From positions 1 to 56,972 of the forward strand of contig JACOUX010000041.1 in the NCBI GenBank assembly GCA_016177615.1: a stretch of DNA of 56,972 nucleotides, in the 5' to 3' direction. The notes beneath the pieces are model-generated. The model was given only the letters and a program-made list of their open reading frames with translations, had not been told where the DNA came from and did not search any database. Shown here one piece after another: positions 2,357 through 39,212 of this stretch. A program made the translations under genes and the position numbers. Origin of the DNA: Candidatus Woesearchaeota archaeon. Its GTDB lineage: Archaea; Nanobdellota; Nanobdellia; Woesearchaeales; GW2011-AR4. Within the stretch, counting starts at the first letter, position 1, and each line of letters starts with the position of its first letter.

Positions 2357-2403
2357 TTTTTTAATTTATTTATTTTAGAAATTCAAAAAGCCCAAAAATC
2401 AAA

Positions 2404-3582: not shown

Positions 3583-3618
3583 TCAAACTAAAAAAAACTC
3601 AAAAACAATAATCGTCAA

Positions 3619-5586: not shown

Positions 5587-5594
5587 GATTAAAA

Positions 5595-22063: not shown

Positions 22064-22879
22064 TTACTTGCCTGGTGCATAAGGCGCTGTTTTTTGCCCT
22101 CCGCTTAAACCGGATCCTATTGAGTACAAAGCATCATAAATTCCCCCTATTGTGTTTTTTCCAAGCTTGTAGGAGACTGTTGCCGTTGCTTTAGCATAAG
22201 ATAATGGGTTTATTGCATCAAGAAGGTTTCTCATGCTTGCCTTTTTTTCGGCCTCTCTGAAGGCATTTTTTGTATTATAAACAAAGCTTAACAGGCCGGC
22301 ATAAATCATTTGCGGCAAAAGCCCCATTGTATAAACAAACAAAACATTTATTGTCCCCAATATTCCAAGTGTCTTGAACGTATCTTTTACTCCAGTCCAC
22401 CAGTGTTTCCTGAATTCTTTGCCTATGCCATAGTTCATTGCAGTTCTCATTGTTGAAATTGCAGGCTGATGTATTCCCAAAAAGGCGCCTACTTTAGCTG
22501 TTTTAGCGACTGTGTTTCCGTAATCAGCGGCAACAATAGTCTCAAGATTATTCAATGCCCTGAAGCCAGTCGCTAATGGCAACGATAATGCGGTCCCTAC
22601 CATGCCTGCCTTGAATGCGCCTTTCTCAATAGGCTCGTTCTGTGCCAGATTTCCAGCAATTTTGCCCGCTGAAAATCCAGCTGCTGTTACAGCTGCCCTT
22701 GGAACGTGAGACGCATCAAATGGCATATAAACAAATGGCATTATTGCAAGAGAGCCGAATAACAATGCCTTTCTTGCAAAGCTTCCTAATTCATCAATCA
22801 GATTTTCCAAAGCGCCTTTTTCCTTTTTCTCTTCCTTCTGCTCCTGAGGCGGAACAGCGTTTGGAAGCCCCTCAGCCAT
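22064..22879 (-). CDS. Hydrophobic multi-helix protein, cassette copy 2
   Basis: 271 residues from the ATG at 22879; an upstream start at 22891 would lengthen the overlap. Charged N-terminus (QEQKEEKKEKG, then LENLIDELGSFARKAL), several hydrophobic helices (about 45-65, 100-120, 180-215), and the C-terminal motif SYKLGKNTIGGIYDALYSIG. Paralogue of the protein at 23014-23904, with the same N-terminal and C-terminal motifs. Its ATG overlaps the stop of a ribbon-helix-helix gene by 8 bases (ATGGCTGA). Function unknown. Pairing with an RHH protein recalls toxin-antitoxin layout, but the hydrophobic partner is not a toxin family I know. Convergent with the BtuF-like gene. Confidence 0.7.
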   Translation of the reverse strand: MAEGLPNAVPPQEQKEEKKEKGALENLIDELGSFARKALLFGSLAIMPFVYMPFDASHVPRAAVTAAGFSAGKIAGNLAQNEPIEKGAFKAGMVGTALSLPLATGFRALNNLETIVAADYGNTVAKTAKVGAFLGIHQPAISTMRTAMNYGIGKEFRKHWWTGVKDTFKTLGILGTINVLFVYTMGLLPQMIYAGLLSFVYNTKNAFREAEKKASMRNLLDAINPLSYAKATATVSYKLGKNTIGGIYDALYSIGSGLSGGQKTAPYAPGK

Positions 22880-23012
22880 TTTCCACCTCAAGCAGCTTTT
22901 TTACAGCGTACTCTACAACGTGGCTTTTATTCCTGAATTTTCCGCTGGAAATAGCCTCATGGATACCCAGAACTGTTCCTTCATCCAGTGTTATGCTGAT
23001 TTTTTCCTTCAT
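22872..23012 (-). CDS. Ribbon-helix-helix DNA-binding protein, cassette copy 2
   Basis: 46 residues. MKEKISITLDEGTVLGIHE gives the beta strand and first helix, and KFRNKSHVVEYAVKKLLE the second: a complete CopG/Arc-like RHH fold. It starts 1 base after the stop of hydrophobic copy 1 and overlaps hydrophobic copy 2 by 8 bases. Paralogue of the RHH at 23897-24037. Presumed dimeric repressor. Confidence 0.75.
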   Translation of the reverse strand: MKEKISITLDEGTVLGIHEAISSGKFRNKSHVVEYAVKKLLEVENG

Positions 23013-23013
23013 T

Positions 23014-23904
23014 TTAGTGTGCCGGCGCGTGTGCTGGAGCTGCAGCTGGGGCTGGTTTAGGTTTTGGAGATGCTGGCTTTGGAGCAGAAGGCGCAGCCGC
23101 AGCAGGCGCATACGACATAGCATTGTTCAGCCCACTTCCTATAGAGTAGAATGCATCGTATATGCCGCCAATTGAATTCTTGGCCAGCTTGTATGTTACA
23201 CTGGCAGCAGCTTTATAGTAGGGGGTTTTGTCCTTTTTCTCTTCTTCCTTTAGCTCTTCTTTTTGCGGAGCCCCAAATAAGTCAAAGACATAGCTTAGTG
23301 CCGCAGAGATTGGAATCTGAAGCCATGATGGAGCAAAAAATACATTCAACAGACTGAAAGGCAGCAATTTTTTCCATGCATCTTTTAGAGTTTTCCAGTA
23401 ATGTGTTTTTACATAAGTTCCAAGCCCCTTAAATGTGCGGTTTCTTATGAGGTAAGCCATTGGCTGGTATGCTGCAATAAATCCAGGATATGCTATTCCT
23501 CCCCAAACGCCTGCTTTTGCCAAATAATCAAGCGGAGTGTTAAGCGGCATCCTGTTGACTAAGCCGAACATTCCTTCGATGAAAGGGGTTATTCCAGTAC
23601 CCAATGCAGCAGACTCAAGCAGGCTTCCTGCCGTATATTTTTTCCCTTTTTTATAAGAAGTTGTAATATCAGAAGCAACTTGGGCTCCTGACAGGATGTA
23701 TGTATCTGTTGCAAACTGGGGCAAAGCTTTTGTGCTCGCATATGGAATCATCCCCGCAAGGCCGATCTTTAATGCATTGCCGAAGAAATAACCTGTTTCA
23801 TCAACAAGATTCTCCAAAGTTGTTAATGGCTTTTTTTCCTCTTTCTTCTCTTGGGAAGGGGCTGTCTTTGCAATGTCCTCCACGTTTTTAGGAGAATCAG
23901 CCAT
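23014..23904 (-). CDS. Hydrophobic multi-helix protein, cassette copy 1
   Basis: 296 residues. Lys/Glu-rich N-terminus (QEKKEEKKPLTTLENLVDE), hydrophobic helices in the middle, a HYWKTLKDAWKKL segment, and the C-terminal motif SVTYKLAKNSIGGIYDAFYS, followed by an Ala/Pro-rich tail (PAAAAPSAPKPASPKPKPAP) that the second copy lacks. Clear paralogue of 22064-22879. Its ATG overlaps the stop of its RHH partner by 8 bases (ATGGCTGA). Membrane or membrane-associated location is inferred from hydrophobicity. I do not recognise the family. Confidence 0.72.
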   Translation of the reverse strand: MADSPKNVEDIAKTAPSQEKKEEKKPLTTLENLVDETGYFFGNALKIGLAGMIPYASTKALPQFATDTYILSGAQVASDITTSYKKGKKYTAGSLLESAALGTGITPFIEGMFGLVNRMPLNTPLDYLAKAGVWGGIAYPGFIAAYQPMAYLIRNRTFKGLGTYVKTHYWKTLKDAWKKLLPFSLLNVFFAPSWLQIPISAALSYVFDLFGAPQKEELKEEEKKDKTPYYKAAASVTYKLAKNSIGGIYDAFYSIGSGLNNAMSYAPAAAAPSAPKPASPKPKPAPAAAPAHAPAH

Positions 23905-24037
23905 TCTGCTCCTCCATCAGCTTTTGGACGGCAAATTCCACTGCGTGGCTTTTGTTCCTGTACTTTCCAGTAGAAAGAATTCTATCAAGCTCTTCCAGTA
24001 TTTCCTTATCTAAGCTGACACTCAGTTTATGCTTCAT
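23897..24037 (-). CDS. Ribbon-helix-helix DNA-binding protein, cassette copy 1
   Basis: 46 residues, too short for usual gene calling. MKHKLSVSLDKEILEELDR then KYRNKSHAVEFAVQKLME, an RHH fold closely similar to the copy at 22872-23012. First gene of a four-gene, minus-strand, translationally coupled run. A TATA-like box overlapped by palindromic repeats (24057-24082) lies just upstream, fitting autoregulation. Confidence 0.75.
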   Translation of the reverse strand: MKHKLSVSLDKEILEELDRILSTGKYRNKSHAVEFAVQKLMEEQNG

Positions 24038-24056: not shown

Positions 24057-24082
24057 TACTACTAAGTAGTATTTTATACTAC
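24057..24082. promoter_or_regulatory. Palindromic operator over the RHH-cassette promoter
   Basis: TACTACTAAGTAGTA (24057-24071) is a near-perfect palindrome, and a further TACTAC half-site follows (24077-24082). On the minus strand the TATA-like GTATAAAATA lies between and over these sites, upstream of the RHH start at 24037. Regularly spaced TACTAC/GTAGTA half-sites are what RHH dimers usually bind. Confidence 0.6.
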
Positions 24083-24140
24083 CAATATATAAATTTATCT
24101 ATTTTTTATTACTTTAAAATAGTTACAAATTATAAGAAAA

Positions 24141-24150
24141 ATTTAAATAT
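24141..24150 (+). promoter_or_regulatory. TATA-like box of vapBC
   Basis: ATTTAAATAT lies about 29 bases before the vapB ATG at 24175. The spacer holds the direct repeat ACATACATACAC, a possible regulator site. Confidence 0.45.
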
Positions 24151-24174
24151 TAAATACACATACATACACAGATT

Positions 24175-24408
24175 ATGGCAACTAAAACAATTTCAATTAC
24201 GGAAGAGGCTTATGAAAGATTGAAAGCAAAAAAGGAAAACAATGAGAGTTTCACGGATGTTATTAACAGGGTAATCGGAAAGCGCTCTTTGCTTGAATTA
24301 GCGGGTATTCTAAGCGAAGAGGAAGCGGACCAATTAGAAAAACATATCAAAGAAAGACGGGCGGCAAGCAGAAGAAGGTCGGATAGGATTCGAGAGATGT
24401 TAAGATGA
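24175..24408 (+). CDS. VapB-type antitoxin (DUF217 family)
   Basis: 77 residues. The N-terminal TKTISITEEAYERLKAKKE is an RHH/DNA-binding strand-helix, SFTDVINRVI the second helix, and the C-terminal SEEEADQLEKHIKE and arginine-rich tail would wrap the toxin. This is the archaeal DUF217 antitoxin pattern. It overlaps the PIN toxin by 4 bases (ATGA) and should repress the operon together with it. Confidence 0.85.
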   Translation: MATKTISITEEAYERLKAKKENNESFTDVINRVIGKRSLLELAGILSEEEADQLEKHIKERRAASRRRSDRIREMLR

Positions 24409-24800
24409 TATTGGATACTTCTTTTGTTATTGATTTAATTAAGGGTAGGCCAAATGCTGTATCCAAGCTAAAAGAATTAGAAAAGGAAAATGTGCCATAT
24501 TCAATAACATCTCCAACTGTATATGAGCTGTGGAGCGGTTTGGTCTCTCTTGAAAAATCTGAAAAAGAAAAGCAAAAAACTACATCTTTAATCAGTGAGC
24601 AAATAATCTATTTTCTAGATGATAAAAGCGCAGAAGAAGCGGGCAAAATCGATGGCAAATTAATCAAAATCGGCAAAATGATAGAGCCTGAAGACTGCAT
24701 GATTGCCGGCATTGCTGTAACAAATAATCAAAAGCTCTTAACAAAGGATCCTCATTTCAAGAGAATAGAAGGATTGAAAGTGGAATTGTATGTAAATTAA
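24405..24800 (+). CDS. VapC-type PIN-domain ribonuclease toxin
   Basis: 131 residues. Acidic active-site residues of a PIN domain are visible: D4 in MILDTSFVIDL, the Glu in TVYELWSG (about 42), and the Asp residues in PEDCMIAGIAV and LLTKDPHF near the C-terminus. VapC toxins cleave tRNA or rRNA. Preceded by its antitoxin with a 4-base overlap; its stop overlaps by 4 bases the stop of the convergent HEPN gene. Confidence 0.9.
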   Translation: MILDTSFVIDLIKGRPNAVSKLKELEKENVPYSITSPTVYELWSGLVSLEKSEKEKQKTTSLISEQIIYFLDDKSAEEAGKIDGKLIKIGKMIEPEDCMIAGIAVTNNQKLLTKDPHFKRIEGLKVELYVN

Positions 24801-25222
24801 ACATATTTTTCTACTTCATTCACAAAAACATTCGCATCTTCCAATGCTGTTGATGCATCCTGTCCCTCGGGCTTGTACTCAAGGCCATACATGGCTTCAT
24901 GCCTTTCTGTTCTGTGTATATTAAGCAGATTTAATATGTGAAGTGGAATCTTATCGCTGTATTTCTCCTTAAGATAGAAGTAAATTGCATAGTGGCTTTT
25001 TTCCTGAATTCCGTCTTTGAAAAGCAAAGCCCGGGCAGCATGAAACATTGCCATATAAGATTTGAGGACGGCAAAATCAAAAATCTTAAGCTCAATTGCC
25101 CTTTTGGCATCTTCTAAGCTTTTCTTCGATAGCTCGAGCGACTTTTTAGTCTTTTCCCTGTCTGGATTTATTCTTCTAAGCAGCCTGAACTTAAAGCAGT
25201 CTTCAATATTTCTTATTTCCAT
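24797..25222 (-). CDS. HEPN-domain protein (toxin of HEPN/MNT module 1)
   Basis: 141 residues from ATG 25222; GTG 25237 would add five. The helical HEPN fold is indicated by KSLELSKKSLEDAKRAIELK, SYMAMFHAARALLFKDG and the catalytic-type RTERHEAMYG (R followed by H, the RNase motif of HEPN toxins). It follows the nucleotidyltransferase gene by about 25 bases. In known pairs the MNT partner AMPylates and inactivates the HEPN RNase. Confidence 0.8.
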   Translation of the reverse strand: MEIRNIEDCFKFRLLRRINPDREKTKKSLELSKKSLEDAKRAIELKIFDFAVLKSYMAMFHAARALLFKDGIQEKSHYAIYFYLKEKYSDKIPLHILNLLNIHRTERHEAMYGLEYKPEGQDASTALEDANVFVNEVEKYV

Positions 25223-25248
25223 TTTGTCAAAAACCACCGATTAATATT

Positions 25249-25800
25249 TTATTTCTGATGTACCAAAGGAAGTTCCCCGTATAGTGGAATTCCATAGCTT
25301 ATAATTTCAAGATAAAATGCTGCATTATCTTTTGATTGACTGTTCCATTCGCTCCAGCTGAATATATGCAGCGTAATCTCTTTCCCTAATGCCTCTTGAA
25401 ACTTTCCCAGATCAAGATATTTTTCTTTTCCGATTATTAATATGTCTGCATCGCTTTTTGGATCATCTCCCCCTTTTGCAATGGAGCCAAAAAGAACTAT
25501 AGAAGAGACATTTGCTATATTTTGCTTTAAAAAATCAATTAACCCTGATTTAATAATAATCCTCATGCTAAGGGAAATCTTAAGATATCTAAAAAATAGA
25601 TTATTGGTATTTGCCTTAAAATATCTCAAATTAGCCTTTCTTTCCTCATTGATTAGCCCTTCCCTTATCAAAATGTCAGCATATTTCTTGACAGCAAAAG
25701 GGCTCAATTTCAGCTTTTTTGCCAGCTGCCTTAGATACACTTCTTCATAGGGATTCTGGAGAAAAAATTCAGCTGTTTTCAAAAATGTAAATTCTTGCAT
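25249..25800 (-). CDS. Winged-helix + MNT nucleotidyltransferase (antitoxin of HEPN/MNT module 1)
   Basis: 183 residues. An N-terminal winged helix (about 1-65; VYLRQLAKKLKLSPFAVKKY) is fused to a minimal nucleotidyltransferase domain with LFGSIAKGGDDPKSDADILI, the GSx(10)DxD pattern needed for catalysis. Likely antitoxin that both modifies the HEPN partner and represses the operon. A 14-base inverted repeat flanks the TATA-like box just upstream (25801-25858). Confidence 0.82.
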   Translation of the reverse strand: MQEFTFLKTAEFFLQNPYEEVYLRQLAKKLKLSPFAVKKYADILIREGLINEERKANLRYFKANTNNLFFRYLKISLSMRIIIKSGLIDFLKQNIANVSSIVLFGSIAKGGDDPKSDADILIIGKEKYLDLGKFQEALGKEITLHIFSWSEWNSQSKDNAAFYLEIISYGIPLYGELPLVHQK

Positions 25801-25858
25801 ACGATTGTTTTTATTTTTAGTATTTATATATCTTTTGTTTTTATATAAAAATAATCGT
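25801..25858. promoter_or_regulatory. Inverted repeat flanking the promoter of HEPN/MNT module 1
   Basis: ACGATTGTTTTTAT (25801-25814) and ATAAAAATAATCGT (25845-25858) match as an inverted repeat at 13 of 14 positions. The minus-strand TATA-like GATATATAAATA lies in the 30-base loop between them. A symmetrical repressor binding both arms would cover the promoter; the winged-helix MNT protein is the obvious candidate. Confidence 0.55.
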
Positions 25859-25942
25859 TTTTAATTTTGTATTATCAATTGGGTGCAACCATTATTAAAC
25901 CAAAAAGTATATAAATAATAAAAATATTATAAAAATTATAAT

Positions 25943-25956
25943 ATACTATTTAGTAT
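25943..25956. promoter_or_regulatory. Operator-like palindrome 1
   Basis: ATACTATTTAGTAT, a near-perfect 14-base palindrome and first of three related sites upstream of the operon starting at 26107. Confidence 0.45.
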
Positions 25957-26025
25957 AAATAACTGCTGAAACGAAATGTTTAAATATCAGTTCTATGCAA
26001 AATAGAATATAAATTAAAAAAATAT

Positions 26026-26039
26026 ATACCATTTAATAT
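26026..26039. promoter_or_regulatory. Operator-like palindrome 2
   Basis: ATACCATTTAATAT, related to sites 1 and 3; 83 bases after site 1. Confidence 0.4.
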
Positions 26040-26078
26040 AATATAAAGAATAGAAAGATTTTTATATTATAAGTATAT

Positions 26079-26092
26079 ATTCCAATTGGTAT
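26079..26092. promoter_or_regulatory. Operator-like palindrome 3, next to the operon start
   Basis: ATTCCAATTGGTAT, with a perfect CCAATTGG core. It lies between TATA-like sequence (about 26062-26078) and the TTG start at 26107, a position from which a bound protein would block transcription. Confidence 0.5.
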
Positions 26093-26106
26093 AAGAGTGT
26101 GAGCGC

Positions 26107-27252
26107 TTGGAGAGTAAAGAGTTAGCAATCAGGAGAAAGTATTACTTGGATTTGCTAGACAGCAATACAAATTCTATAAAAAAGGGAGCCGGAAAACATA
26201 TTGTCTTGCTTGGCTCGAGAAAATGCGGGAAAACATCTATTGTGAAAGAGCATTTGAAAAATGCCAAGGATGTAGTTCCGGTTTACATTGATTTTGGGAA
26301 AATAAGCCTGAATCCTGAAAATTTCTCAATTGAGTTAATCGGAAACGTTGTTTTTTACTATCTGAAAAAGCCGATTCATGATTACAAAAAATTCCTTCTT
26401 CTTGGGCATTTGATTAAAATCGAGAATGAGCTGAAAAGCAAAAATGCCTTCTCACTTATTAAAGCCATTGAAAATGAGCTGCTGAAGATCAAGCCGGACC
26501 AGAGATTGATGGCTGAGAGCGCGTTTAAGTTTGCCGAAGCGCTGGGCAGGGACAGCAATAAGAAACTTCTGATAGTGTTTGACAATTTTGAGAACATTCT
26601 GGACTTAAACAATTATTCCAAGATAAAAGACATCTTATCGCTGATAAATTTTGATGCTCTTAATGTCTGCTATGTTGCTACAAGCTCTGCAATAAAGGAA
26701 TCTCTGTCTTCACTGAAGAAATTTCAATGCTATGAGATAAAAAATCTTGAAAGAGATGATGCTATTGGGCTTATTGAGGGGATTGTAGGCAAGAACGATA
26801 AAGCTGGCAATGAGATTTTTGAATTAAGCAGCGGCCATCCATTTGTGGCTACTTTGATTTCCAAAAGATACAATGAGCTTAAGGATGCAAAAAAGGCATT
26901 TTTAATAGAATTGCTGCAGAAAAATAACTCGATTTACAATTACTGCAATGAGTCCCTGAATTATTACTACAACAGAGCCCGCGGGCAGACTCTGCTTAAA
27001 ACAATCCTGAAAGTGGTTGCAAATGAGGAATTGAGATTAAGCGAGATTGCAAGAAGAATCTACAGGAGCGCTCCTGTAACAAAAAGCATTCTTGAAAGGC
27101 TTGTTGACGTTGATGTAATCTGCAAGAAGGACAAGAGGTATTATTTCAATGACAATGTGCTCAGGCTTTGGCTGAAACTAACTTCGCATGGATACGAGTT
27201 TGACGAAGCTCCTGATGATAAAACGCTAAATGAAATTGAAAAAGAGCTATGA
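26107..27252 (+). CDS. Archaeal P-loop ATPase with C-terminal winged helix; first gene of the five-gene operon
   Basis: 381 residues from a TTG start; no better start is near. Walker A is LGSRKCGKTSIV (about 36-47), Walker B LLIVFDNFENI (about 155-165), a sensor-like YVATSSAIKE follows, and the C-terminal part (LRLSEIARRIYRSAPVTKSI) is a winged helix. This is the Archaeal_ATPase/STAND-like architecture (PF01637 group). It may power, regulate or sense for the linked membrane system. The next gene begins inside its stop (ATGA overlap). Three operator-like palindromes precede it. Confidence 0.8.
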   Translation: MESKELAIRRKYYLDLLDSNTNSIKKGAGKHIVLLGSRKCGKTSIVKEHLKNAKDVVPVYIDFGKISLNPENFSIELIGNVVFYYLKKPIHDYKKFLLLGHLIKIENELKSKNAFSLIKAIENELLKIKPDQRLMAESAFKFAEALGRDSNKKLLIVFDNFENILDLNNYSKIKDILSLINFDALNVCYVATSSAIKESLSSLKKFQCYEIKNLERDDAIGLIEGIVGKNDKAGNEIFELSSGHPFVATLISKRYNELKDAKKAFLIELLQKNNSIYNYCNESLNYYYNRARGQTLLKTILKVVANEELRLSEIARRIYRSAPVTKSILERLVDVDVICKKDKRYYFNDNVLRLWLKLTSHGYEFDEAPDDKTLNEIEKEL

Positions 27253-28430
27253 GAAATAATAATTTGATTTGGATTTTTGTATTCCTGCTGTTAGCTAGCT
27301 TGATTTATGCTGTTTTTGCCTCGGGCCAGCCTGCCCATTCCGCATCAGCAGCGCCAGCTTCAACAGCTTCTTCACTAAGGCTGCCTAACTGGCAGTTATT
27401 CCAGCAATGGTGGTTTATATTGTTTGTGAACAGCATGATTGTGTGGCTTGTGCTGTTTGTGTTGCAGTCATTGATAATAGGGCAGAAGGAAGGGAAGGAG
27501 AAGGGTGTGATATGGCTGATAACTTTGGTGTTGGCTGTGTTTATAGCCTTTGCATGGGGAGGGGGATACCAAAACTACATCTGGAAAACTGGCTATGTAG
27601 CTAAATTTTTTAGCGTCAAGTTCCTTATTAATTCGGCAATAATTTCATTAGCTGTGTGGTTTGGATTTGGCCTACTAACAGGAAAGCAGCCAAGCTCCAA
27701 GGCAGGCATGGTTGGAATGGTGATGCTAACTATCTTTATAACATACCTGCTGGCTTCCAGCATTGGAGACAAGTACCTTTGGGCTACTGACAACGGAAAG
27801 GCGATATACGAATATTTGCTTGGGCCGGAAAAAGATATAAAAGATCTAAAAACAGGAAAGATTACTGGACGTGAAGGGGGAATATTAAGGCCTGAAGGGA
27901 AAAACTATAGATTGTTTGTGTTTTTGGGCACTGCCCTGATGCTTGCGTGGTTCTTGCCGGCATACCTCAATCTGCAGCAACAAAGCAAGCTAACATATGC
28001 AATTGCCATCTTGCTTGCAGCTATTCTTGCCCATAAAGGATCGCCATCATCAACCGCAACAGGAATGGCAGAGATATTTTTCCTTTTAATCATAGCCAAA
28101 CAGATTACAATCGGCACCGGCACAATCGGAAGTGTGCTGAGCTGGTCAATCTCCATAATCATTACCCAATGGATTTTTGGGGCATTATTTGAGACAACTA
28201 TTGTTGGAAAAATGCTTTCGCCTGTGTTTAATTTTTTTGGGAATGTTCCAATAATAGGGAGCTGGGTAGCAGAAATAGGGAAGGCAATAATAAATGCACC
28301 AGGTTACTTGACGGGAACAATAACGCCGCCACCTGGAGGCGCATCTACGACTATTACACCACCACCTGGAGGCACTATTGATGGGGGAGCGTTGGGCTGG
28401 CTTTTGCGGAAGTTGGGGATTGGCACATAA
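27249..28430 (+). CDS. Polytopic membrane protein with Pro/Gly repeat tail
   Basis: 393 residues with about nine hydrophobic segments: a possible signal anchor (LIWIFVFLLLASLIYAVFA), then 55-75, 84-101, 118-145, 152-172, 220-238, 245-262, 272-290 and 300-318. The loop GREGGILRPEGKNYR lies between segments 5 and 6. The C-terminal tail holds two copies of TITPPPGG. No transporter or secretion family is recognised. It overlaps the ATPase gene by 4 bases and is followed 1 base after its stop by the next gene's ATG. Probably the membrane core of a complex built by this operon. Confidence 0.72.
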   Translation: MRNNNLIWIFVFLLLASLIYAVFASGQPAHSASAAPASTASSLRLPNWQLFQQWWFILFVNSMIVWLVLFVLQSLIIGQKEGKEKGVIWLITLVLAVFIAFAWGGGYQNYIWKTGYVAKFFSVKFLINSAIISLAVWFGFGLLTGKQPSSKAGMVGMVMLTIFITYLLASSIGDKYLWATDNGKAIYEYLLGPEKDIKDLKTGKITGREGGILRPEGKNYRLFVFLGTALMLAWFLPAYLNLQQQSKLTYAIAILLAAILAHKGSPSSTATGMAEIFFLLIIAKQITIGTGTIGSVLSWSISIIITQWIFGALFETTIVGKMLSPVFNFFGNVPIIGSWVAEIGKAIINAPGYLTGTITPPPGGASTTITPPPGGTIDGGALGWLLRKLGIGT

Positions 28431-28431
28431 A

Positions 28432-30375
28432 ATGGCAATATTTCAAAAAGGCAGGGATTTTATGGAAAATTATGGCTCTAGAATAACCAAGTTTATTTTT
28501 TATGGGTTGATAGCTGATGTTATCTTGTCTGGGTTAATATCAATATTTGACCGCCCAACAAGGCCAATACTATTAACCCTAATACGATTAATTTTCGGAG
28601 AAAAAGGCCAATCATGGACTGTATACCTAATCCTCTTTTTCGTTGTGTGGCTTCAGCGCAAATGGGTTGTAGATAAATGGCCAAAATTGCTTGGAGGCGG
28701 CATATTAAGATTTTTCAGAGACAAATGGCCAGCCATCTTAGGAGGAAGAATATTAAGGTACTTGCTTGGCGGCGAAACAATGGGGATAATAAACGAGACC
28801 AAGCGCAGGGTCTGGCTCAAGATGCTCAGAAGAATCCAAGCCAGCAGATCCTTATATTGGCTGGCTAAAGACTGGTATATCCGTGAGCCAACAATCCCGG
28901 GTGAGCTGCCGAACGCGTTCAAAGACCTAAGGATTCACTTATACACTTTAATGAACTTTATGCTAAGGCACCAGGTATGGAAAGCCAAAGGGAACACTGC
29001 GCATAGTATATACCTCCAAATGAAAGCTCCGGAAGATCTTCTTGCGAGAAATATTGATACTCCATACGGGATAAACAAGAACATGAAGAGGTACATTGAA
29101 GGGGGCAAAATATGGAGAGATAGCGAGGATGAAAAATGGGTATGTGAACGTGATCCCAGTGATCCAAAAGGAGAAGATATTGCAATGGGATTCGCAAGGC
29201 ATTACTTTATAGTATTAAGGATTATGGATTGGCTTAGGCATGAATTGTCGCAAGATCTTACGCGTGATCCAAGCCCGGATGAATTTGAGCATATTCCAGA
29301 TAAAGCACGGAATGTTTATGATAAAGATATTGAGCCTTTGTTGTACGGCCTTACAAATCCTAAGCTTGGTTATTTTGAAGAAAGGTACAAAACAGCTGTA
29401 AAAAGGTTTAAAGTCGTGAACTTGGCAAGAATCATGAGGCTGTTTTACCTTGACATGTACAATATGTGCGGGCAATATGAAAGGGGCCTTTGCTTTCCCA
29501 GATTGGATGCCAAACCGGATTACTATTTATGCGTATTGGAAAAAAATCCTGATGATACAACCTCATTGTCCATTGATTGGCAAAAGACAAGGGATAATAT
29601 CATTAAAAGCCCAAAAAAAGAATTTGTTGACAGATTCTTTTACCCTCATGGCCACTTTAATGTAAACCACCATAATCCCAACTTCCTGATTGAGCTTGAT
29701 TTGTATGGTTGGTGTTTGGATGATATAAATAAAATTCAAGTTGAGAAAGGAAGAGTATCTGGGGTGATACCGAGAATTATCAGAAGATTCAAGAATAAGG
29801 ATATGGTTATGTTTCACAGGCCTGATAAAGAGATAGCAAGTAAATATGGAATAAAAATCGAAAATCAGCCTAGGCTGTATGAAGTGCTCCATTTATCCTC
29901 TGATTTTGAATGGATTACTGGAGCTGAAGAAGACATGAGAAAGGGCTGGTTCCATCCTTTTAGCAGAATAGTCGGAGACTACACTGGGCCAGAATCGAGT
30001 TCAGACCAGGTCAATGTCGGCATCACTCAAGGATTCATCAATCTCAAGGAAGCTAGATTTAGGCGCCTTGTTCAAGAAAGAGTTGACACGGCATATGATA
30101 ACGAAGCCCTAAAAAATCCTGGCTTTTTCAGGTTCTGGGGAAGAAGGCACTATTTTGATGAGCTTGTCCCTGGTTGTTATGTTACAAATCCTGCTAATCC
30201 TTACCCTACTCTTTCATTAGAGGGTTTATGGGAGATTATAAAAGCAGTTTCTACTGCGAGAATCAAGGAAGAAGGGTTAGCACAGGCGTATTTGGATGAG
30301 TATTTCAGAATGCAGTACTATGCCCTATCCACTAGTGGCGAAGAAGAGGGCGGAGGAGATCAAAGTGGCCATTAA
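28432..30375 (+). CDS. Large membrane-anchored protein of unknown family
   Basis: 647 residues from the ATG at 28432, one base after the previous stop; an upstream in-frame ATG at 28378 would lie inside the preceding gene. Two N-terminal hydrophobic segments (FIFYGLIADVILSGLISIF; TVYLILFFVVWL) are followed by a long soluble part rich in Trp, Tyr and Arg. The C-terminal region (about 568-598) carries GRRHYFDELVPGC then NPYPTLSLEGLWEII, which matches a motif in the 895-residue protein of the same operon. No known domain recognised. The long soluble domain may lie on the cytoplasmic side. Confidence 0.7.
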   Translation: MAIFQKGRDFMENYGSRITKFIFYGLIADVILSGLISIFDRPTRPILLTLIRLIFGEKGQSWTVYLILFFVVWLQRKWVVDKWPKLLGGGILRFFRDKWPAILGGRILRYLLGGETMGIINETKRRVWLKMLRRIQASRSLYWLAKDWYIREPTIPGELPNAFKDLRIHLYTLMNFMLRHQVWKAKGNTAHSIYLQMKAPEDLLARNIDTPYGINKNMKRYIEGGKIWRDSEDEKWVCERDPSDPKGEDIAMGFARHYFIVLRIMDWLRHELSQDLTRDPSPDEFEHIPDKARNVYDKDIEPLLYGLTNPKLGYFEERYKTAVKRFKVVNLARIMRLFYLDMYNMCGQYERGLCFPRLDAKPDYYLCVLEKNPDDTTSLSIDWQKTRDNIIKSPKKEFVDRFFYPHGHFNVNHHNPNFLIELDLYGWCLDDINKIQVEKGRVSGVIPRIIRRFKNKDMVMFHRPDKEIASKYGIKIENQPRLYEVLHLSSDFEWITGAEEDMRKGWFHPFSRIVGDYTGPESSSDQVNVGITQGFINLKEARFRRLVQERVDTAYDNEALKNPGFFRFWGRRHYFDELVPGCYVTNPANPYPTLSLEGLWEIIKAVSTARIKEEGLAQAYLDEYFRMQYYALSTSGEEEGGGDQSGH

Positions 30376-32047
30376 TCCTTATTCAGGAATCAATGAAAAA
30401 GAACTTGAAAGAGCAGGCAGCATTTCATCTCCAACTGATAAGAATGCATCCCTTGCCATTTCTGCCCTGAAAATATTGGAAGAGTCTAACAAGGTTATGG
30501 AAGACGCAATGTCAATGGCAAATTCCAATTCAAAAGAAAACAATCCTGGAGTAAGAAGAATAAGATGGATAAAGAGAAATCTTGAGGAGATGTCTGTAAG
30601 CCTGAAAGGTGGAAAAATCACATTTAGCCAGGTATATTTTATGATTGCGCAAAATGCAAATTGGATAGGCCAATATGACAAAAGCCTGGCAGCTTATATC
30701 CTGAACTACAAAGAAGCTGGCGCCAAAGGGCCTATCGGAGAATTAGGGATTATTTTAAGCTCGCCAGATCGTCTATTGGCAAATCTTGAGCTGGCATGGG
30801 AAAAGTGCGATGCGATTGAAAATAAGGATATAAAATCAAAAGTAAGAAGCAGGATTTCACTTATTGAAAAACTGAAGCGCGAGCTGGAAATTTTGGAAAA
30901 TGACTTAAGGGATATAAGCAATTGGGGCAGCCATTTCAATGAAGGGGCAGCTTTTTACATAGAGCGGCTGCAGCTTTATTTTCAGGGCGGCACGGCAAAA
31001 GATAAAATTGAGTTTAAAGCTATTGATGAGTTCAAAGACGACAGTCTAAAAAATGCCGTATTGCAAAGCAGCGAGATAAAAGAGCTTTTTAGGTTCTTTA
31101 AAAATGTTAAGCTGCAGGCAAACTATATCTCCCAGCTAATTTACCTGCTAAAAAAAGACCTTGATCCGCAAGGTGAAAAATGGATAAGCAACAATTCGAC
31201 CAGCTTGTTCTTTAGGAATATAGAAGCTTATGCTCAAAAATTCAGGGATTACTATTCAAATGGCGCTTTCGCAGATAGCCTTATAAAAAGCAAAGATGCT
31301 ATTGGAGAAAATCCTTTTGGCTGGATTGGCCTGCTTGACAAAGAGAAATCTGAAATTTTATCTGCTACTCCGCATGAGCTGGCAATTATAGAAAATGCAA
31401 GGGCGCGTCTGGATTATGTCTTTAAACAAAGAATTGAAAGAATAAAATCCTCAATAAATGTTATCATATCAAGCATAAGGCCACTTCTTGGAGCAGAAGA
31501 TTACGATGAATTTATCAGAGTAGTAATTGCAGGGCTTGCCAGGATAGAGGCATTATTGTCAAGGTTGTGGAAAGAAAGGGTAAATCTATTGAAAAATCTC
31601 AATGGCAAGCTTGATGCCTTATCCGAGCAGGCCTCTAGTAAGCTTGAAGAAATTAATGGATTATGTGATTTCGGGCAGGAAGGCAGATATCTGGCTCAGG
31701 CTTCGAAGAGCCTGGTTGCTGGCAAGGGATGGATGAGGAAGTTTGGCGCAGGAGTCGACCCTAAAAATGAAAATGCACAAAATTACTTAGGCCCCTTGGC
31801 TTTTATGGTATCGGAAATGGAAATGGCTGCCGAAGCCAAAGAAATGGCTTTTAATGCAATCAGCCTAAAAGAAAATGCATTGGAAAGCTATGATATTGAA
31901 GGCTTTAAAATTTTGATGGAAAGATTATTGGATGCCTATCTCAAAGCGCTGCAAGTTATATTGGCGCTTGGGTTATACAAAGAGAAAGAGAAAATAAAGT
32001 CTGCGATAAAAAATGCTGTATCATTAAGAGGTGAGTACAATGGCTGA
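30365..32047 (+). CDS. Helical coiled-coil protein of unknown family
   Basis: 560 residues if started at GTG 30365, chosen because a GGAGGAG ribosome-binding site (30350-30356) lies about 8 bases before it and the overlap with the upstream gene is then only 11 bases; an ATG at 30296 would give a 583-residue form overlapping by 80 bases. The protein is almost wholly alpha-helical with heptad-like stretches (LKRELEILENDLRDI; RIEALLSRLWKERVNLL). No membrane segment, Cys cluster or catalytic motif is visible. Its stop overlaps the next gene's ATG by 8 bases (ATGGCTGA). Probably a structural or scaffold part. Confidence 0.68.
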   Translation: MAINPYSGINEKELERAGSISSPTDKNASLAISALKILEESNKVMEDAMSMANSNSKENNPGVRRIRWIKRNLEEMSVSLKGGKITFSQVYFMIAQNANWIGQYDKSLAAYILNYKEAGAKGPIGELGIILSSPDRLLANLELAWEKCDAIENKDIKSKVRSRISLIEKLKRELEILENDLRDISNWGSHFNEGAAFYIERLQLYFQGGTAKDKIEFKAIDEFKDDSLKNAVLQSSEIKELFRFFKNVKLQANYISQLIYLLKKDLDPQGEKWISNNSTSLFFRNIEAYAQKFRDYYSNGAFADSLIKSKDAIGENPFGWIGLLDKEKSEILSATPHELAIIENARARLDYVFKQRIERIKSSINVIISSIRPLLGAEDYDEFIRVVIAGLARIEALLSRLWKERVNLLKNLNGKLDALSEQASSKLEEINGLCDFGQEGRYLAQASKSLVAGKGWMRKFGAGVDPKNENAQNYLGPLAFMVSEMEMAAEAKEMAFNAISLKENALESYDIEGFKILMERLLDAYLKALQVILALGLYKEKEKIKSAIKNAVSLRGEYNG

Positions 32048-34727
32048 TCCGCCAAAGCAGGAAACTGCCAAAAATCCAATAAGCGGTATTTTCACTCCAC
32101 TTAGGAATAAGGTTGCGCTTTTCCTAAGAGATTACGTGGGGTTGCCAACCCACGAGAAAGTAACAGAAAGAATTGATGTTAGTTCTTCCAAAATTAAGGA
32201 GCGCATAAACAAGGAAATAAACCTGGATACAGTTAAAAGGTTAAACAAGCTTATGTTCGAGCAGGCTGAGAAAGGGTGGGAGGGTTACGATGAGAGCATC
32301 GAACACTATTGGTCAGAAGTAATTCAATTATACTCATTCAAAAAGAATCCTGACAAGGAAGCAAAGCCTGAGAATAAGTGGCTAATAAAAGATACAGAAT
32401 TCAGAGATTCTATTGGGCCATTTACATACAAGCCCTCTTTGGATGTTGAATCACTTGCTGCGCCAAAAGGGACAGGCTTCAGAGATGAAACAATAATAAT
32501 CAAAAAAGGCGATGAAGCAATAAGAGGAACATTTTCTATTCCCAGATTGATTCCAATTCACTACTATGATGGCAGGGCAAATCCGGAAAGTGTGGGGGAG
32601 CCAAGAACTATTGAAGGGGATTTAGGAATAGCCTACAAGATTGCATTTATAGGCGCTGATTCGTCCGATAAATACTGGGGAAACCTGGATAGGGAGATAC
32701 AACAAATAATTGATGAAGTAAAAAACTGGCACTTGGAAAGAGAAACTGATCCGAAAAAGAGAAATAATGTTGTAACCAGGATTAATACTATAAAAACGTA
32801 TATCAACGGAATTATTAACAAGGAGCTAAAGAATACAATAAGAACAATTGAAGATTCTCATCGCTCGAACCTATTTGGATCGACTGGAATTCAAGGGCTT
32901 CATCCTAAGGCCGAAGCGGCGTCCACGAAATTAATCGAGAAAAAATTAAAAGATGACAAGGTCTATTTTGTGCATACATATAAGATAATAAAGCAGTATT
33001 GCATAAAAAATATTGAAGCGCAAAAGGAAGAATTGATCCTTTTTCATGATGCGATAAAAGAGTTTGAAAAAAGAAGTGAGCATATAGCCGACCCTGGAGA
33101 AGTATGCCGAATTGAATTTGAATGTTTAACCATGGGGGTATCCCAAAAGGAGAATATGGAAGTAATCGTTCACCTCGACACAAGAAAAAATCCATATGAA
33201 GAGTTTAAATTGCAGCTTGAAAACGAGGTTCAGGCATTGGGCATTAATAATGAAAGAAGAAACAGGCTAAACAAGCAGAGGGAGCTTCAGGAAGTTGAAA
33301 GTAAGTTAAATCTTAAGTTTGAAGCTTTGCCGCCTAACTTGCAGAATAAAGTGATGCTCAGGATTTTCACTAAATTAACACAACTGCAGTCCAAAGAAGA
33401 ACACGGTAAAATCAAAAATGCGGATTTTGAAGCCCTTAAGGAGGTTATTCAAAGAAATATTAGCAGCCTGTTTCCAAAATTGCTAAACAGGCAGTATTTG
33501 CATTATTTGGAATATTTACAGGAAATAAAAGACAGGTTGCGCAAATATTTGTCAGATGAGGGAAAACGGGAGGAATTTATTGAATATATTGTTGATTTAT
33601 TGCATGAAACTAAAAAAGAGCAAATTGGAGGCTTAGACTTAAAAGAGTTAGTTAAGCAAAAATGGAGAATTCTTTATGAGATAAGCAGCATCAGGAAAAA
33701 AATCAGGGAGTTTGGGTTAGCCAGCATAAAATTGGATAACCTGTCAGAATGCATAAGAATAGTAAATGAAGTGAGGAACAAGCCAGATTATAGAAGATTT
33801 CTGCGAGACAGCCTAAATTTCCCGTGGGAGCAGGGTATAGGCCTTGACGAGAATGGCTACCCCTTGGAAGTCGGCGATGGCGAAATGGATTTTACAGAGA
33901 GAATTGACTTAGGAGATGGAAAGTTCAAAACCAAGACCTATAAATTAAATAAGGGGGAAGTGCTGTTAGACCGCTACTTGGCTCTGGTTCCAAAAGACAG
34001 CAGAAGGTATAGGGCGATTCCAGAAGACCATCGCCGAATGGCTCCGGAAGATTTCATTGCAGATTGTGACTTGATGGACTGGGCTACCTGGGCCCATGTG
34101 CACTATGATTCATGGAGAGACGACCTAAGAGACGCCAGGTATCACAATAAGTCAATTACTGTGATGGACAGGATAATGAGGGAATTAAAAAATCCTTACT
34201 TTAGTATAAATGAAAAAAGAAGGAAAGGCTTGAAGTATGGAGAAAATTTCTGGACTTCACGAAATGTCAGCCAGTCTGATGCCGTGATTAAGCTTAATAA
34301 ACTGCCCCCAGGCTCGACAGAAGAAGAAAAAAGGCCCAGCGGCGACCCTGATTTTGTAAAGATGAAAATGAAGGCATCACATCTTAATCCTGCTTTTGAC
34401 ACGCGGGCAAAAGGAAATGATATTCATCTTGGAAGGGTGTTTTATTATGATGTTCAGGACCATTGCGAACAATCGCCATACCCAACTATAACTACAAGGG
34501 GAGCTGCCCTATATATATTGCATAGAGTCATAGAAGAATCGAAATACTGGGGAGGAAAAAACCAGGATATCAGCCAAGGATATAGGGGTGTTATAGAAAC
34601 ATTATTGGCGATTAGTAAAGTTACAGAGGGATATGATATAGGAGCTAACATGGGCAGGCCTGAAGCACACTATCCTGGCTGGGGAAAGCCACTGCCAAGA
34701 AATCCATTCAAGCCCCAAAGAGGATGA
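32040..34727 (+). CDS. 895-residue soluble protein of unknown family; last gene of the operon
   Basis: Started at ATG 32040, which has GAGGTGA about six bases upstream; a GTG at 32031 would add three residues. The N-terminal third includes GLPTHEKVTERIDVSSSKIK; the central part is helical (about 400-570); the C-terminal third is Trp/Tyr/His-rich. Near the C-terminus (about 796-821) it has LGRVFYYDVQDHC then SPYPTITTRG, matching the membrane-anchored protein at 28432-30375. No nuclease, protease or NTPase motif could be named. Conserved His/Asp/Tyr residues leave an enzymatic role possible, but this is not shown. Confidence 0.68.
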   Translation: MADPPKQETAKNPISGIFTPLRNKVALFLRDYVGLPTHEKVTERIDVSSSKIKERINKEINLDTVKRLNKLMFEQAEKGWEGYDESIEHYWSEVIQLYSFKKNPDKEAKPENKWLIKDTEFRDSIGPFTYKPSLDVESLAAPKGTGFRDETIIIKKGDEAIRGTFSIPRLIPIHYYDGRANPESVGEPRTIEGDLGIAYKIAFIGADSSDKYWGNLDREIQQIIDEVKNWHLERETDPKKRNNVVTRINTIKTYINGIINKELKNTIRTIEDSHRSNLFGSTGIQGLHPKAEAASTKLIEKKLKDDKVYFVHTYKIIKQYCIKNIEAQKEELILFHDAIKEFEKRSEHIADPGEVCRIEFECLTMGVSQKENMEVIVHLDTRKNPYEEFKLQLENEVQALGINNERRNRLNKQRELQEVESKLNLKFEALPPNLQNKVMLRIFTKLTQLQSKEEHGKIKNADFEALKEVIQRNISSLFPKLLNRQYLHYLEYLQEIKDRLRKYLSDEGKREEFIEYIVDLLHETKKEQIGGLDLKELVKQKWRILYEISSIRKKIREFGLASIKLDNLSECIRIVNEVRNKPDYRRFLRDSLNFPWEQGIGLDENGYPLEVGDGEMDFTERIDLGDGKFKTKTYKLNKGEVLLDRYLALVPKDSRRYRAIPEDHRRMAPEDFIADCDLMDWATWAHVHYDSWRDDLRDARYHNKSITVMDRIMRELKNPYFSINEKRRKGLKYGENFWTSRNVSQSDAVIKLNKLPPGSTEEEKRPSGDPDFVKMKMKASHLNPAFDTRAKGNDIHLGRVFYYDVQDHCEQSPYPTITTRGAALYILHRVIEESKYWGGKNQDISQGYRGVIETLLAISKVTEGYDIGANMGRPEAHYPGWGKPLPRNPFKPQRG

Positions 34728-34798: not shown

Positions 34799-35335
34799 CT
34801 ATATCTTATTCCTAAGGACTCTTAACTCTCTAATCAGTTTTTTCACAAAATTGTCAATTTCAGGCTCCTTTAGTGACTTGAACCTTAAATCCACGTTGCG
34901 GAATGCCTTCTTGTAAAGCAAAACAATATCCTCATTTTCAATTGTTTTAATTGCATCTTCAATCAGCTTTGCAACACTGGAATTGCCCTTAAAGACCCTC
35001 AAATCAAGCTTTGGAATGATATGGGATATATCATACAAATCCTTAAACTCTTTTCTGTCAATTAAAGTGATAAGCTTGGTGATGAACAGCCTTTCAATCC
35101 GGTAGTAAAAAAATTCTCCCTTCTTGTTCAGATTTTTTGTAGGCTCGATAAAATCAACATCTATTTTTGTATGAAATTCTTTGTAAGTTTCAAGCAAAAT
35201 GTTCATGTGGTACCTGTTGGTTGCAGCAAGGCCGCTCTTGCCTTTGGAGTAATTTTCAATAAGCCCTCTGCCTTTAAGCTTCTCAAGAATGGAAATTAAG
35301 TAAGCCTCTGTATGTCTAATATTTTTGCCATTCAG
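34799..35335 (-). CDS. AbiEii-like protein (type IV TA toxin-like), start unclear
   Basis: An ATG at 35206 would give only 135 residues, yet coding-like sequence continues upstream in frame (EAYLISILEKLKGRGLIENY, then KGKSGLAATNRYH). Two explanations fit: a CTG start at 35335 that overlaps the previous stop as CTGA (178 residues), or an ATG at 35331 followed by a one-base deletion in an A5 run (35322-35326). The C-terminal half (ERLFITKLITLIDRKEFKDLYDISHI) resembles the nucleotidyltransferase AbiEii/AbiGii family, but the N-terminal GG...SxDxD signature is not visible. It follows a partner gene directly, as in AbiE-like pairs. Confidence 0.5.
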   Translation of the reverse strand: MNGKNIRHTEAYLISILEKLKGRGLIENYSKGKSGLAATNRYHMNILLETYKEFHTKIDVDFIEPTKNLNKKGEFFYYRIERLFITKLITLIDRKEFKDLYDISHIIPKLDLRVFKGNSSVAKLIEDAIKTIENEDIVLLYKKAFRNVDLRFKSLKEPEIDNFVKKLIRELRVLRNKI

Positions 35336-35937
35336 ACCCCGAATTTTGCATAATCTATTGTTTTTTGTCTTGGGATTGCCTCCTTGAATTTTTCATGATT
35401 TCCTGCGAACATTTTTCCGTATCTTGAAATCATCTGAAGCCACACATTTTTAACATATTCGTTTTTTGCAATCTTTGCGTCGTTAAAAATCTGCTCATTT
35501 GCCGCATACTTCAATCCTGTTTTTTTGTCAACAAAATATTTGCTTTTTTCTATGGATTTCACTCTGATAAATTTAAGCGTATGGACAGCAATCCTCATTA
35601 TTCCTTCAACTCTGGTGTTTATCACTTCTATAACTTTCGGCTCAAAATACCAGCCATATCCATTGTGCTTTAACGCTTCAAGACCTGTGATGTAATAAGA
35701 GCCGATGCTGTCTAAAATAATTCTAATGTTCTCAGCTGGTTCTTGCTTGCTTTCAAGCTCTTCGAGCGCTGTTAGCTTTTTTCTCATATTTCCTCTTAAA
35801 TATCTTTTTTCGTTTTCTGTAAGATTGTTGCCTGCATTCATCTTTTTTATGATATTAAACTGCATTGGCTTGAATAGGGTTGGAACTACCAATTCCTCAG
35901 AATCTGCAAGCTTCCTTATTAATTGCTGGCTTGCCAT
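35332..35937 (-). CDS. Hypothetical protein, probable partner/regulator of the AbiEii-like gene
   Basis: 201 residues. The N-terminal half is helical (FNIIKKMNAGNNLTENEKRY, LRGNMRKKLTALEELE), reminiscent of a compact DNA-binding or dimerisation region; the rest (YYITGLEALKHNGYGWYFEP ... VEGIMRIAVHTLKFIRV) has no match I can name. First gene of a minus-strand pair, with its stop touching the downstream gene. A GGATAT-AAAA-ATATCC palindrome lies directly upstream, between start and TATA-like sequence. The antitoxin/regulator role is inferred from position only. Confidence 0.5.
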   Translation of the reverse strand: MASQQLIRKLADSEELVVPTLFKPMQFNIIKKMNAGNNLTENEKRYLRGNMRKKLTALEELESKQEPAENIRIILDSIGSYYITGLEALKHNGYGWYFEPKVIEVINTRVEGIMRIAVHTLKFIRVKSIEKSKYFVDKKTGLKYAANEQIFNDAKIAKNEYVKNVWLQMISRYGKMFAGNHEKFKEAIPRQKTIDYAKFGV

Positions 35938-35940
35938 TTA

Positions 35941-35956
35941 GGATATAAAAATATCC
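35941..35956. promoter_or_regulatory. Palindromic operator of the AbiE-like pair
   Basis: GGATAT-AAAA-ATATCC lies 3 bases before the start at 35937 and just inside a TATA-like stretch (about 35960-35968). The position fits repression by the first gene product. Confidence 0.5.
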
Positions 35957-36043
35957 TCTAATATATAAATGTATGGTTGGCCACTCTTTATCTAAAATTG
36001 TTCAGTACAATAGAAAGGCCTCTTCCTCAAGGAGCTACTTGAT

Positions 36044-36164
36044 TTTTCATTATTTTGAAAATTTGATTAATTTATTTATAAATAAATTAGTATATTTCCA
36101 TTATTCTGAAAATAGAAAAATTTATATATATGAAGTTATTACTTATTTTCACTATTTCGGAAAT
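36044..36164. repeat. Three 19-base repeats at exact 51-base spacing (operator array)
   Basis: TTTTCATTATTTTGAAAAT at 36044, TTTCCATTATTCTGAAAAT at 36095 and TTTTCACTATTTCGGAAAT at 36146. Copies 2 and 3 match copy 1 at 17 and 16 of 19 positions. Each is a loose inverted repeat (TTTTCA...TGAAAA type). The 51-base period is close to five helical turns, placing all copies on one DNA face. The last copy ends 3 bases before the ATG at 36168. Likely cooperative binding sites for the winged-helix MNT protein encoded next. Confidence 0.65.
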
Positions 36165-36167
36165 AAA

Positions 36168-36818
36168 ATGTTTATAGAAAACTTAATAAGCTCAAAGGCA
36201 AAAGTAAAGATATTAAGGGTTCTGTCAGAGTCAAGATCTGCTTTCAGCCTGAAAAATATCAAGAATGAGACAGAATTAAGCTTAGGAATAATTCATGAAT
36301 CTGTTCAGGATTTAGTGGGGGAAAAGATATTGCTCAAAATCAGGGGCACTGGAAAAGAAAGGCTGTTCAAGTTTAATACGGAAAATCCTTTTGCCCACAA
36401 CATATTTGAATTATTCAGGATAGAGAAAACTTGGCAGAGAAAGGAAATCGTGTTTTTGCATACATGGAATGTTCTGGAAAATGCAGTGTCAAAGATTAAG
36501 GAAAAATCAAATTTGATCTTATTGTTTGGAAGCCAATCTAGAGGGGATTCCACTTTAAGAAGCGACATAGATTTGCTCGTCATACCAAAAAATTCCCACG
36601 AAGAAATTTTGAATTCTTTGCATAAAGTAAAGTCAAAAAACAAACTAAATCCAACTGTTGTAAGCTTGGAGTCATTTAAAAGCGACATAAGAAATAATAC
36701 TTTATTTTACAAAAACATAAAAAGCGACTCCATAATTTTGCACATTGAGCCTGAAATCAAAAAAGATGTAATTAGATTTCTGGAAGATACACAATACGAA
36801 AAGAAGGAGGCAGTTTAA
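36168..36818 (+). CDS. Winged-helix + MNT nucleotidyltransferase (antitoxin of HEPN/MNT module 2)
   Basis: 216 residues from ATG 36168. An upstream in-frame start at 35973 would translate the 51-base operator repeats (giving FHYFEN-like repeats), so it is rejected. N-terminal winged helix (SSKAKVKILRVLSESRSAFS; LKNIKNETELSLGIIHES), then the MNT domain with LFGSQSRGDSTLRSDIDLLV (GS and DxD motif). One base separates it from the HEPN gene, which it probably AMPylates and silences. Confidence 0.82.
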   Translation: MFIENLISSKAKVKILRVLSESRSAFSLKNIKNETELSLGIIHESVQDLVGEKILLKIRGTGKERLFKFNTENPFAHNIFELFRIEKTWQRKEIVFLHTWNVLENAVSKIKEKSNLILLFGSQSRGDSTLRSDIDLLVIPKNSHEEILNSLHKVKSKNKLNPTVVSLESFKSDIRNNTLFYKNIKSDSIILHIEPEIKKDVIRFLEDTQYEKKEAV

Positions 36819-36819
36819 G

Positions 36820-37290: not shown

Positions 37291-37400
37291 CCAAAACAAT
37301 CCCATTCATCGGAGCAGGAAAGACGGCAACGGCATTGATTAGAATTTCAAAAATCCAACAAGCGATAACTATATATAAATATAAACTAAACATAGAATAA
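37287..37400 (+). pseudogene. Possible 5' remnant of pyrroline-5-carboxylate reductase
   Basis: A 37-codon frame overlapping the HEPN stop reads MTKTIPFIGAGKTATALIR and then loses similarity. The pattern resembles the first 20 residues of ProC (M.kIgFIGAGkMA.ALI.g). The GAGKTA looks like a P-loop at first sight, but the preceding strand fits a Rossmann NADP-binding start better. Too short to function. May be chance. Confidence 0.3.
37368..37382 (+). promoter_or_regulatory. TATA box of the HEPN-MNT hybrid gene
   Basis: CTATATATAAATATA lies about 27 bases before the ATG at 37402 with no ribosome-binding site between; leaderless-type promoter. Confidence 0.45.
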
Positions 37401-37401
37401 A

Positions 37402-39116: not shown

Positions 39117-39212
39117 TATAAGTATAACACTGGTGATATTTATAAACCTTTCGTTTTTCCCGTACATTATTATAATAATGATTATTATGATAATATCAGA
39201 AATTAAGAACTC

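Follow-up and report, generated by a model that had tools for sequence, protein, structure and literature searches.

A five-gene membrane-protein operon of Woesearchaeales with exchangeable subunit genes and a predicted ATPase autoregulator

Transcription regulators of the signal transduction ATPases with numerous domains (STAND) class, such as MalT, carry an ATPase and a helix-turn-helix (HTH) on one chain and have repeated sites in the promoters they control. Polymorphic cassettes at a conserved locus are familiar from comQXP, the O-antigen and type VI effector modules, and Zorya and Kiwa are membrane-associated defence systems. Here we describe an operon of five genes, P1 to P5, which lies in a stretch of 56,972 nucleotides from a Candidatus Woesearchaeota archaeon, a tiny and symbiont-like organism (assembly GCA_016177615.1, contig JACOUX010000041.1, positions 1 to 56,972 of the forward strand), referred to below as the window, and which can be compared with each of these systems. 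The five genes are:

26107..27252, + strand: P1, a STAND/AAA_14-like P-loop ATPase with a C-terminal winged helix, TTG start; predicted operon autoregulator
27249..28430, + strand: P2, a polytopic membrane protein with a signal-peptide-like N-terminus; predicted to be the membrane core (from sequence and hydropathy)
28432..30375, + strand: P3, 647 residues, membrane-anchored, with a large soluble, probably cytoplasmic part (from sequence and the loci of relatives)
30365..32047, + strand: P4, 560 residues, soluble, helical and coiled-coil-like, GTG start
32040..34727, + strand: P5, 895 residues, large and soluble, with a helical N-terminal part and a conserved C-terminal domain

Our preferred reading is that P1 to P5 make up a lineage-specific membrane machine of Woesearchaeales, a cytoplasm-facing export or interaction apparatus with exchangeable subunits and with P1 as its regulator, and we would put the chances of this being correct at about even. 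Export or interaction is the most likely function, with defence as its main rival and a structural scaffold third. In sequence and fold searches no known system emerged to which this machine belongs or of which it is an evident variant, and as such we regard it as new; a remote kinship with a known apparatus could still emerge for P2, for the domain that P3 and P5 share, or for the associated membrane protein c4 described below. Our search of the open-access literature returned nothing relevant on this system in DPANN archaea or Woesearchaeota. P1 resembles archaeal ATPases of the AAA_14/ATPase_2 (STAND-like) class in its Walker A and B motifs, GHP motif and C-terminal winged HTH, but the P1 of the window scores below the Pfam cut-offs, stands first in a fixed operon and is inherited together with an array of palindromes, and we know of no description of such an array for an ATPase of this class. 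With MalT-type regulators it shares an ATPase and an HTH in one chain and repeated sites in the promoter, but its HTH is of another type and lineage, and it is the predicted autoregulator of a membrane operon. The likeness to comQXP, O-antigen and type VI modules is that conserved flanks enclose a variable block, that the block is exchanged by recombination, and that its alleles are those of the same genes; the difference is that the block here, P3 to P5, would encode three large subunits of a predicted membrane complex, in an archaeon. Were the system one of defence, it would work in the manner of Zorya and Kiwa, without kinship.

The five open reading frames (ORFs) span 26107-34727, and their coordinates and all four junctions (an ATGA overlap between P1 and P2, a 1-base gap between P2 and P3, an 11-base overlap between P3 and P4, and a ATGGCTGA overlap between P4 and P5) are as the first-pass annotation of this DNA had given them. 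That annotation had also proposed that the products form one machine, and this translational coupling now finds company in a conserved gene order and in fusions of P2 with P3. The order ATPase-P2-P3-P4-P5 is kept in approximately 20 loci of the operon's own family (some of them cut by contig ends) and appears again in families f43, f46 and f77, which rules out chance ORFs; families f48 and f60 have the operon without P1. P2 follows P1 directly in every P1 locus examined far enough downstream. In about half of the loci P2 and P3 are a single ORF (L068, L069, L071, L074, L077, L080, L081, L087, L111, L112 and L118), and this is direct evidence that the two work together.

The relatives are Woesearchaeota. 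A profile of P5 found matches in 30 of the 353 genomes of the order, which represent 13 of its 220 genera and eight families in a patchy distribution, and in a phylum-wide sample it matched only within the same order, Woesearchaeales. It had been anticipated that the gene order, if conserved in unrelated lineages, would mark a transferable system. Conservation does extend to several families of one order, and was not found outside that order; the P3-P4-P5 block is indeed exchanged between lineages (see below), while the locus itself keeps one chromosomal position throughout the genus, and no relative was found in IMG/VR. Within the genus the operon is near-universal at one syntenic chromosomal site, preceded by genes for a leucyl aminopeptidase, a thioredoxin reductase and a binding protein, and these neighbours are the same throughout the genus; in close relatives the operon was found neither on mobile elements nor at differing sites.

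By hydropathy, the first helix of P2 is signal-peptide-like and is joined by 7-8 further hydrophobic segments; P3 has one clear anchor helix and probably a second, and P1, P4 and P5 have none. A Lys/Arg-rich stretch follows the last helix of P2, at the start of P3, and because such stretches follow the last helix the large soluble part of P3 is probably cytoplasmic. No significant match to P2-P5 was found in Pfam, PHROG or NCBIfam, scanning each of the P2 and P4 family members against Pfam added nothing convincing, and profile searches assigned none of the four to a PDB family, P4 matching only coiled or amphipathic helices. Apolipoproteins were among the PDB matches of P4, but this similarity was discounted as one that amphipathic helices share in general. 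A P4-like gene is also present in families with no recognisable P3 or P5.

The four proteins had been reported as unnamed. They do remain without a family, and known, functionally unrelated families were not found for them in these databases, but P3 and P5 are not unrelated to one another, as their C-terminal domains are homologous:

29644..30372, + strand: C-terminal domain of P3, homologous to that of P5
33807..34724, + strand: C-terminal domain of P5, paralogous to that of P3

The two align by hhalign with a probability of 99.5 and an E-value of 1.6e-22 over 181 columns, a profile comparison by which the C-terminal domains of the two proteins are paralogous. The P5 domain carries the motifs GLDENGYPLEV, RDDLRDARYH, LNPAFD, GR..YY and PYPTITTRG, in that order, and a joint P3/P5 alignment retains EVD..G..L.D, DLR.G..HP.S....DY, AFD..AL, WGR..Y and NPYP.LS..G as common motifs. 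An AlphaFold2 model of an orthologous P5 C-terminal domain, made from a 27-row joint alignment, was moderately confident (predicted local distance difference test, pLDDT, 77.8; predicted template modelling score, pTM, 0.67), and its fold had no match in the PDB or among viral models (BFVD). For a full-length P5 orthologue the model was of low quality (pLDDT 55), and it was left out of the fold search.

The P3-P4-P5 block varies in a manner quite distinct from that of its surroundings. In three pairs of genomes that are sisters by P1, the flanking genes are mostly 75-94% identical and P3-P5 only 25-44%. In L072 and L075, P1 is 90% and the downstream genes are 84-94% identical, against 29, 26 and 29% for P3, P4 and P5, respectively; the flanking DNA is 85-93% identical, and homology ends inside P2 and restarts 6 bases past the P5 stop. 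The pairs L070/L081 and L073/L076 have the same pattern. In maximum-likelihood trees the P3 and P5 proteins of sister pairs fall in different deep types, and the backbone pairing is rejected by approximately unbiased (AU) tests both for P3 (4.9e-6, 1.2e-3 and 4.4e-6) and for P5 (5e-62 and 2e-74), whereas bootstrap values of 97-100 support it in the P1 trees. Conversely, P3-P5 are near-identical between L070 and L082, with a synonymous divergence of 0.25-0.55 as compared to about 1.0 for P2 and an HTH gene, which fits a recent transfer. Judged from these sequence comparisons, P3-P4-P5 is exchanged as a block at a fixed chromosomal site through recombination in the flanks, and the variation is one of which P3-P5 allele is present. 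Misassembly is an unlikely source of the cassettes, since the homologues are in frame, in order and within the same borders in all three pairs. The ratio of nonsynonymous to synonymous divergence (dN/dS) for P3-P5 within a type, from the one close pair tested (L070/L082), is 0.13-0.22, so that the genes are functional; positive selection as the cause of their diversity is unsupported in that pair. That alleles are exchanged as a block implies co-adaptation among P3, P4 and P5 and a partner that itself changes.

Such a partner could be a virus, and the first alternative to be weighed is that the operon serves anti-virus (or anti-plasmid) defence. A membrane-bound complex with a STAND-like ATPase would then act as the sensor, and viral counter-attack would drive its subunits to diversify. 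Cassette exchange and deep allelic types speak for it, as do the STAND-like ATPase itself, the toxin-antitoxin genes nearby, and weak PADLOC matches of P1 (the protein scanned) to mad8 (best 9.6e-6) and to the PDC-S01 ATPase. However, the PADLOC matches are accounted for by the shared P-loop alone, a nuclease, NADase or other effector domain was not found, and the near-universal presence of the operon at a fixed site in the genus is unlike the patchiness of most defence loci. Furthermore, P1 tracks an operator array, as set out next. Defence is in our estimation unlikely, and is nonetheless the alternative that survives best.

The product of P1 had been described as a P-loop ATPase with a winged helix, and the profile matches and motifs agree. 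Of 15 P1 family members, 13 have AAA_14 as their best Pfam match (best E 2e-6) and 6 match HTH_45 and HTH_Cmi2_C, and the P1 of the window matches AAA_14 at E 2.3e-4, below the gathering score; its motifs comprise a Walker A GSRKCGKTS, a Walker B in which DNFEN follows hydrophobic residues, a GHP motif and the C-terminal winged HTH. Within the protein, conservation is highest in the winged-helix half. Within the genus, identity is 71-74% for P1, 29-44% for P2 and mostly 15-35% for P3-P5. The approximately 200 bases 5' of P1 are also strongly conserved in the genus and hold repeated palindromes, TATACCAAWWGGTATA, of which the window has four:

25896..25911: operator-like palindrome 1, TAAACCAAAAAGTATA
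25942..25957: operator-like palindrome 2, TATACTATTTAGTATA
26025..26040: operator-like palindrome 3, TATACCATTTAATATA
26078..26093: operator-like palindrome 4, TATTCCAATTGGTATA, with its end 13 bases ahead of the P1 start codon

No shuffle of the window attains the observed count of palindromes, and across 20 genomes of the genus strong sites are, genome-wide, nearly private to the P1 promoter. Among P1 homologues, the 300 bases preceding the gene were taken from 36 loci (a count that lists two loci twice); they hold 164 sites where 5.1 would be expected, with two or more sites in 35 of the 36; outside the genus, 22 P1 loci, each counted once, have 92 sites against approximately 2 expected. 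The operons of G213, G214, G215 and G231, genomes without P1, have zero sites upstream. The HTH gene c6 stands beside three of these four P1-less operons and a ribbon-helix-helix (RHH) gene beside two, and since both are present where the sites are missing they are poor candidates for the factor that binds the palindrome. A specific, repeated, operator-like array is thus found at P1's own promoter and is co-inherited with it. Because the array tracks P1, is absent from P1-less operons, and accompanies a protein far more conserved than P2-P5, we consider P1 most likely to be an ATP-dependent autoregulator of the operon, not a motor; it would be the binder of the palindrome TATACCAATTGGTATA and probably switches the operon on and off. 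A variant operator, TATACTAGCTAGTATA, lies upstream of P1 in family f77 (L118, L162 and L167), and constitutes a natural test of co-evolution between the P1 winged helix and its site.

A motor is nevertheless what the first-pass annotation had in mind for P1, and the corresponding alternative is that P1 drives the membrane complex while some other regulator binds the palindromes. That P1 is a P-loop ATPase with P2 always immediately behind it accords with this. Yet P1 is 71-74% conserved in a genus where its supposed partners are mostly 15-44% identical, its most conserved half is the winged helix, and four operons do without P1 and without the palindromes as well. The comparative evidence favours a DNA-binding autoregulator, and we regard the motor as rather improbable.

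Two further modules accompany the operon. The first, divergent from P1, consists in the window of two tandem, translationally coupled pairs of an RHH gene and a gene of the c2 family (22064-24037), which could be toxin-antitoxin-like or a cargo-regulator pair:

24058..24070: palindrome ACTACTAAGTAGT, which precedes the first RHH gene and is conserved in the genus; probably the operator for RHH
23897..24037, - strand: 46-residue RHH protein, coupled to c2a by ATGGCTGA
23014..23904, - strand: c2a, 296-residue hydrophobic protein with a Lys/Glu-rich N-terminal part and a Pro/Ala-rich tail ending in APAH; weak Mpv17/PMP22 similarity
22872..23012, - strand: second 46-residue RHH protein
22064..22891, - strand: c2b, second copy of the c2 family

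The RHH-c2 pair is present in one to four tandem copies (c2 having approximately 290 residues), and the RHH gene is conserved before the c2 copies, being found also in L112, L114 and L115. The c2 family is present in 33 of the 353 genomes and in 27 of the 30 that have P5 (by genus, in 14 of 220 and in 10 of the 13 with P5), and given that in distant families c2 is often on other contigs than P5, the association is more than linkage. Six of 15 c2 members match part of the Mpv17/PMP22 domain (PF04117), a mainly eukaryotic family, at E up to 0.1; one exceeds the Pfam cut-off (31.0 against 27 bits, hmmscan), with the others below it or without a match, and two c2 loci exceeded it in a genome search. 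Only some 40-55 residues align, however, and c2 is set apart by the tails at both of its termini and by its RHH partner. The second module pairs a MarR-like HTH with c4, a polytopic coiled-coil protein, and is unlinked to the operon here (G000:C13:46522-48921, HTH adjoining). As families f53, f68 and f79 have c4 in one gene run with P1-P2, the module very likely belongs to the same apparatus; c4 is also found in many genomes without P5, and its alignment to P2 by hhalign has a probability of 50%. The length of c4 ranges among relatives from approximately 170 to 1800 residues, the longest being in G001 (L143:8517-13916). In f79, a 1668-residue protein and another that bears a papain-like QNPFGACTSFAA motif come after the P1-P2-c4 run (L138:536-2473, L138:5452-10455).

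The surroundings had been described as an accessory region rich in toxin-antitoxin genes. These genes are real (PIN, HEPN, nucleotidyltransferase and AbiEii genes flank the operon), but they are insertions beside a fixed syntenic locus. In those relatives whose sequence covers both ends of it, the region between c2 and P1 is approximately 0.4-1.7 kb, mostly below 1 kb, as compared to approximately 2.2 kb in the window, where some 1.75 kb with VapBC and HEPN/nucleotidyltransferase genes (24175-25800) splits it (24140-25890); since they interrupt a region that is short in most relatives, the toxin-antitoxin genes are insertions, not parts of the system. Elsewhere in the window are an AbiEii-like fragment with several nucleotidyltransferase genes downstream of the operon (34799-37803), a 423-residue AAA_14 ATPase of the typical stand-alone archaeal kind that exceeds the Pfam cut-off (37896-39167), and, at the window start, a block of two paralogous pairs of large genes (784/1467 and 392/655 residues; 1-9983).

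A structural or housekeeping role has also to be considered, in which the proteins would form a membrane scaffold special to these small cells, serving their envelope, their division or the formation of vesicles. The fixed locus, the purifying selection and the amphipathic-helix similarity of the coiled-coil P4 to apolipoproteins are compatible with this, but the system is absent from most genera of the order, and repeated replacement by alleles only 25-30% identical would be unusual for a scaffold; we think this quite improbable. That the operon is the remnant of an integrated virus or plasmid, as large proteins without a family and surrounding toxin-antitoxin genes might suggest, is hardly credible and was rejected, given that PHROG, IMG/VR and BFVD returned no matches, that the syntenic position is fixed and the genes are under purifying selection, and that the window contains no transfer RNA gene.

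Returning to the export or interaction apparatus that we prefer, it is reasonable to postulate that P2 (and c4) would form the membrane core, and that P3, tethered to P2 and often fused to it, would carry the large cytoplasmic part, upon which the soluble P4 and P5 may assemble, P5 by way of the same kind of C-terminal domain that P3 has. P1, a STAND-type ATPase, would bind the palindromes before its own gene through its winged helix, and so convert a signal into control of the operon; the RHH-c2 pairs may encode co-regulated membrane partners or cargo. The deep allelic types of P3-P4-P5 probably engage a diversifying partner, be it cargo, a competitor, a virus or a host. Several points weigh against this reading. 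The membrane topology is read from hydropathy and from the positive-inside rule, an enzymatic or transport activity is indicated by no match to a family, a PDB entry or a fold, and P5 is present in only 13 of the 220 genera of the order. The genomes are draft assemblies, most of them metagenome-assembled, and some have short contigs. The diversity of the cassettes also fits a defence system, and the palindromes could be bound by another factor that acts only on P1-type promoters.

Few machines for dealing with other cells are known from DPANN archaea, and many of their genes are unnamed. What is gained here is a defined, conserved multi-gene system, together with a regulatory prediction for a class of archaeal ATPases without an assigned role, and the exchange of cassettes between sister lineages offers a handle in natural variation. 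Woesearchaeota are thought to depend on partner cells. More speculatively, and with a likelihood that we consider low, the system may represent a new class of envelope apparatus in archaea, by which these organisms contact other cells or deliver c2 proteins to them, in which the exchangeable cytoplasmic subunits would set compatibility types and a new family of STAND ATPase regulators would switch the whole.

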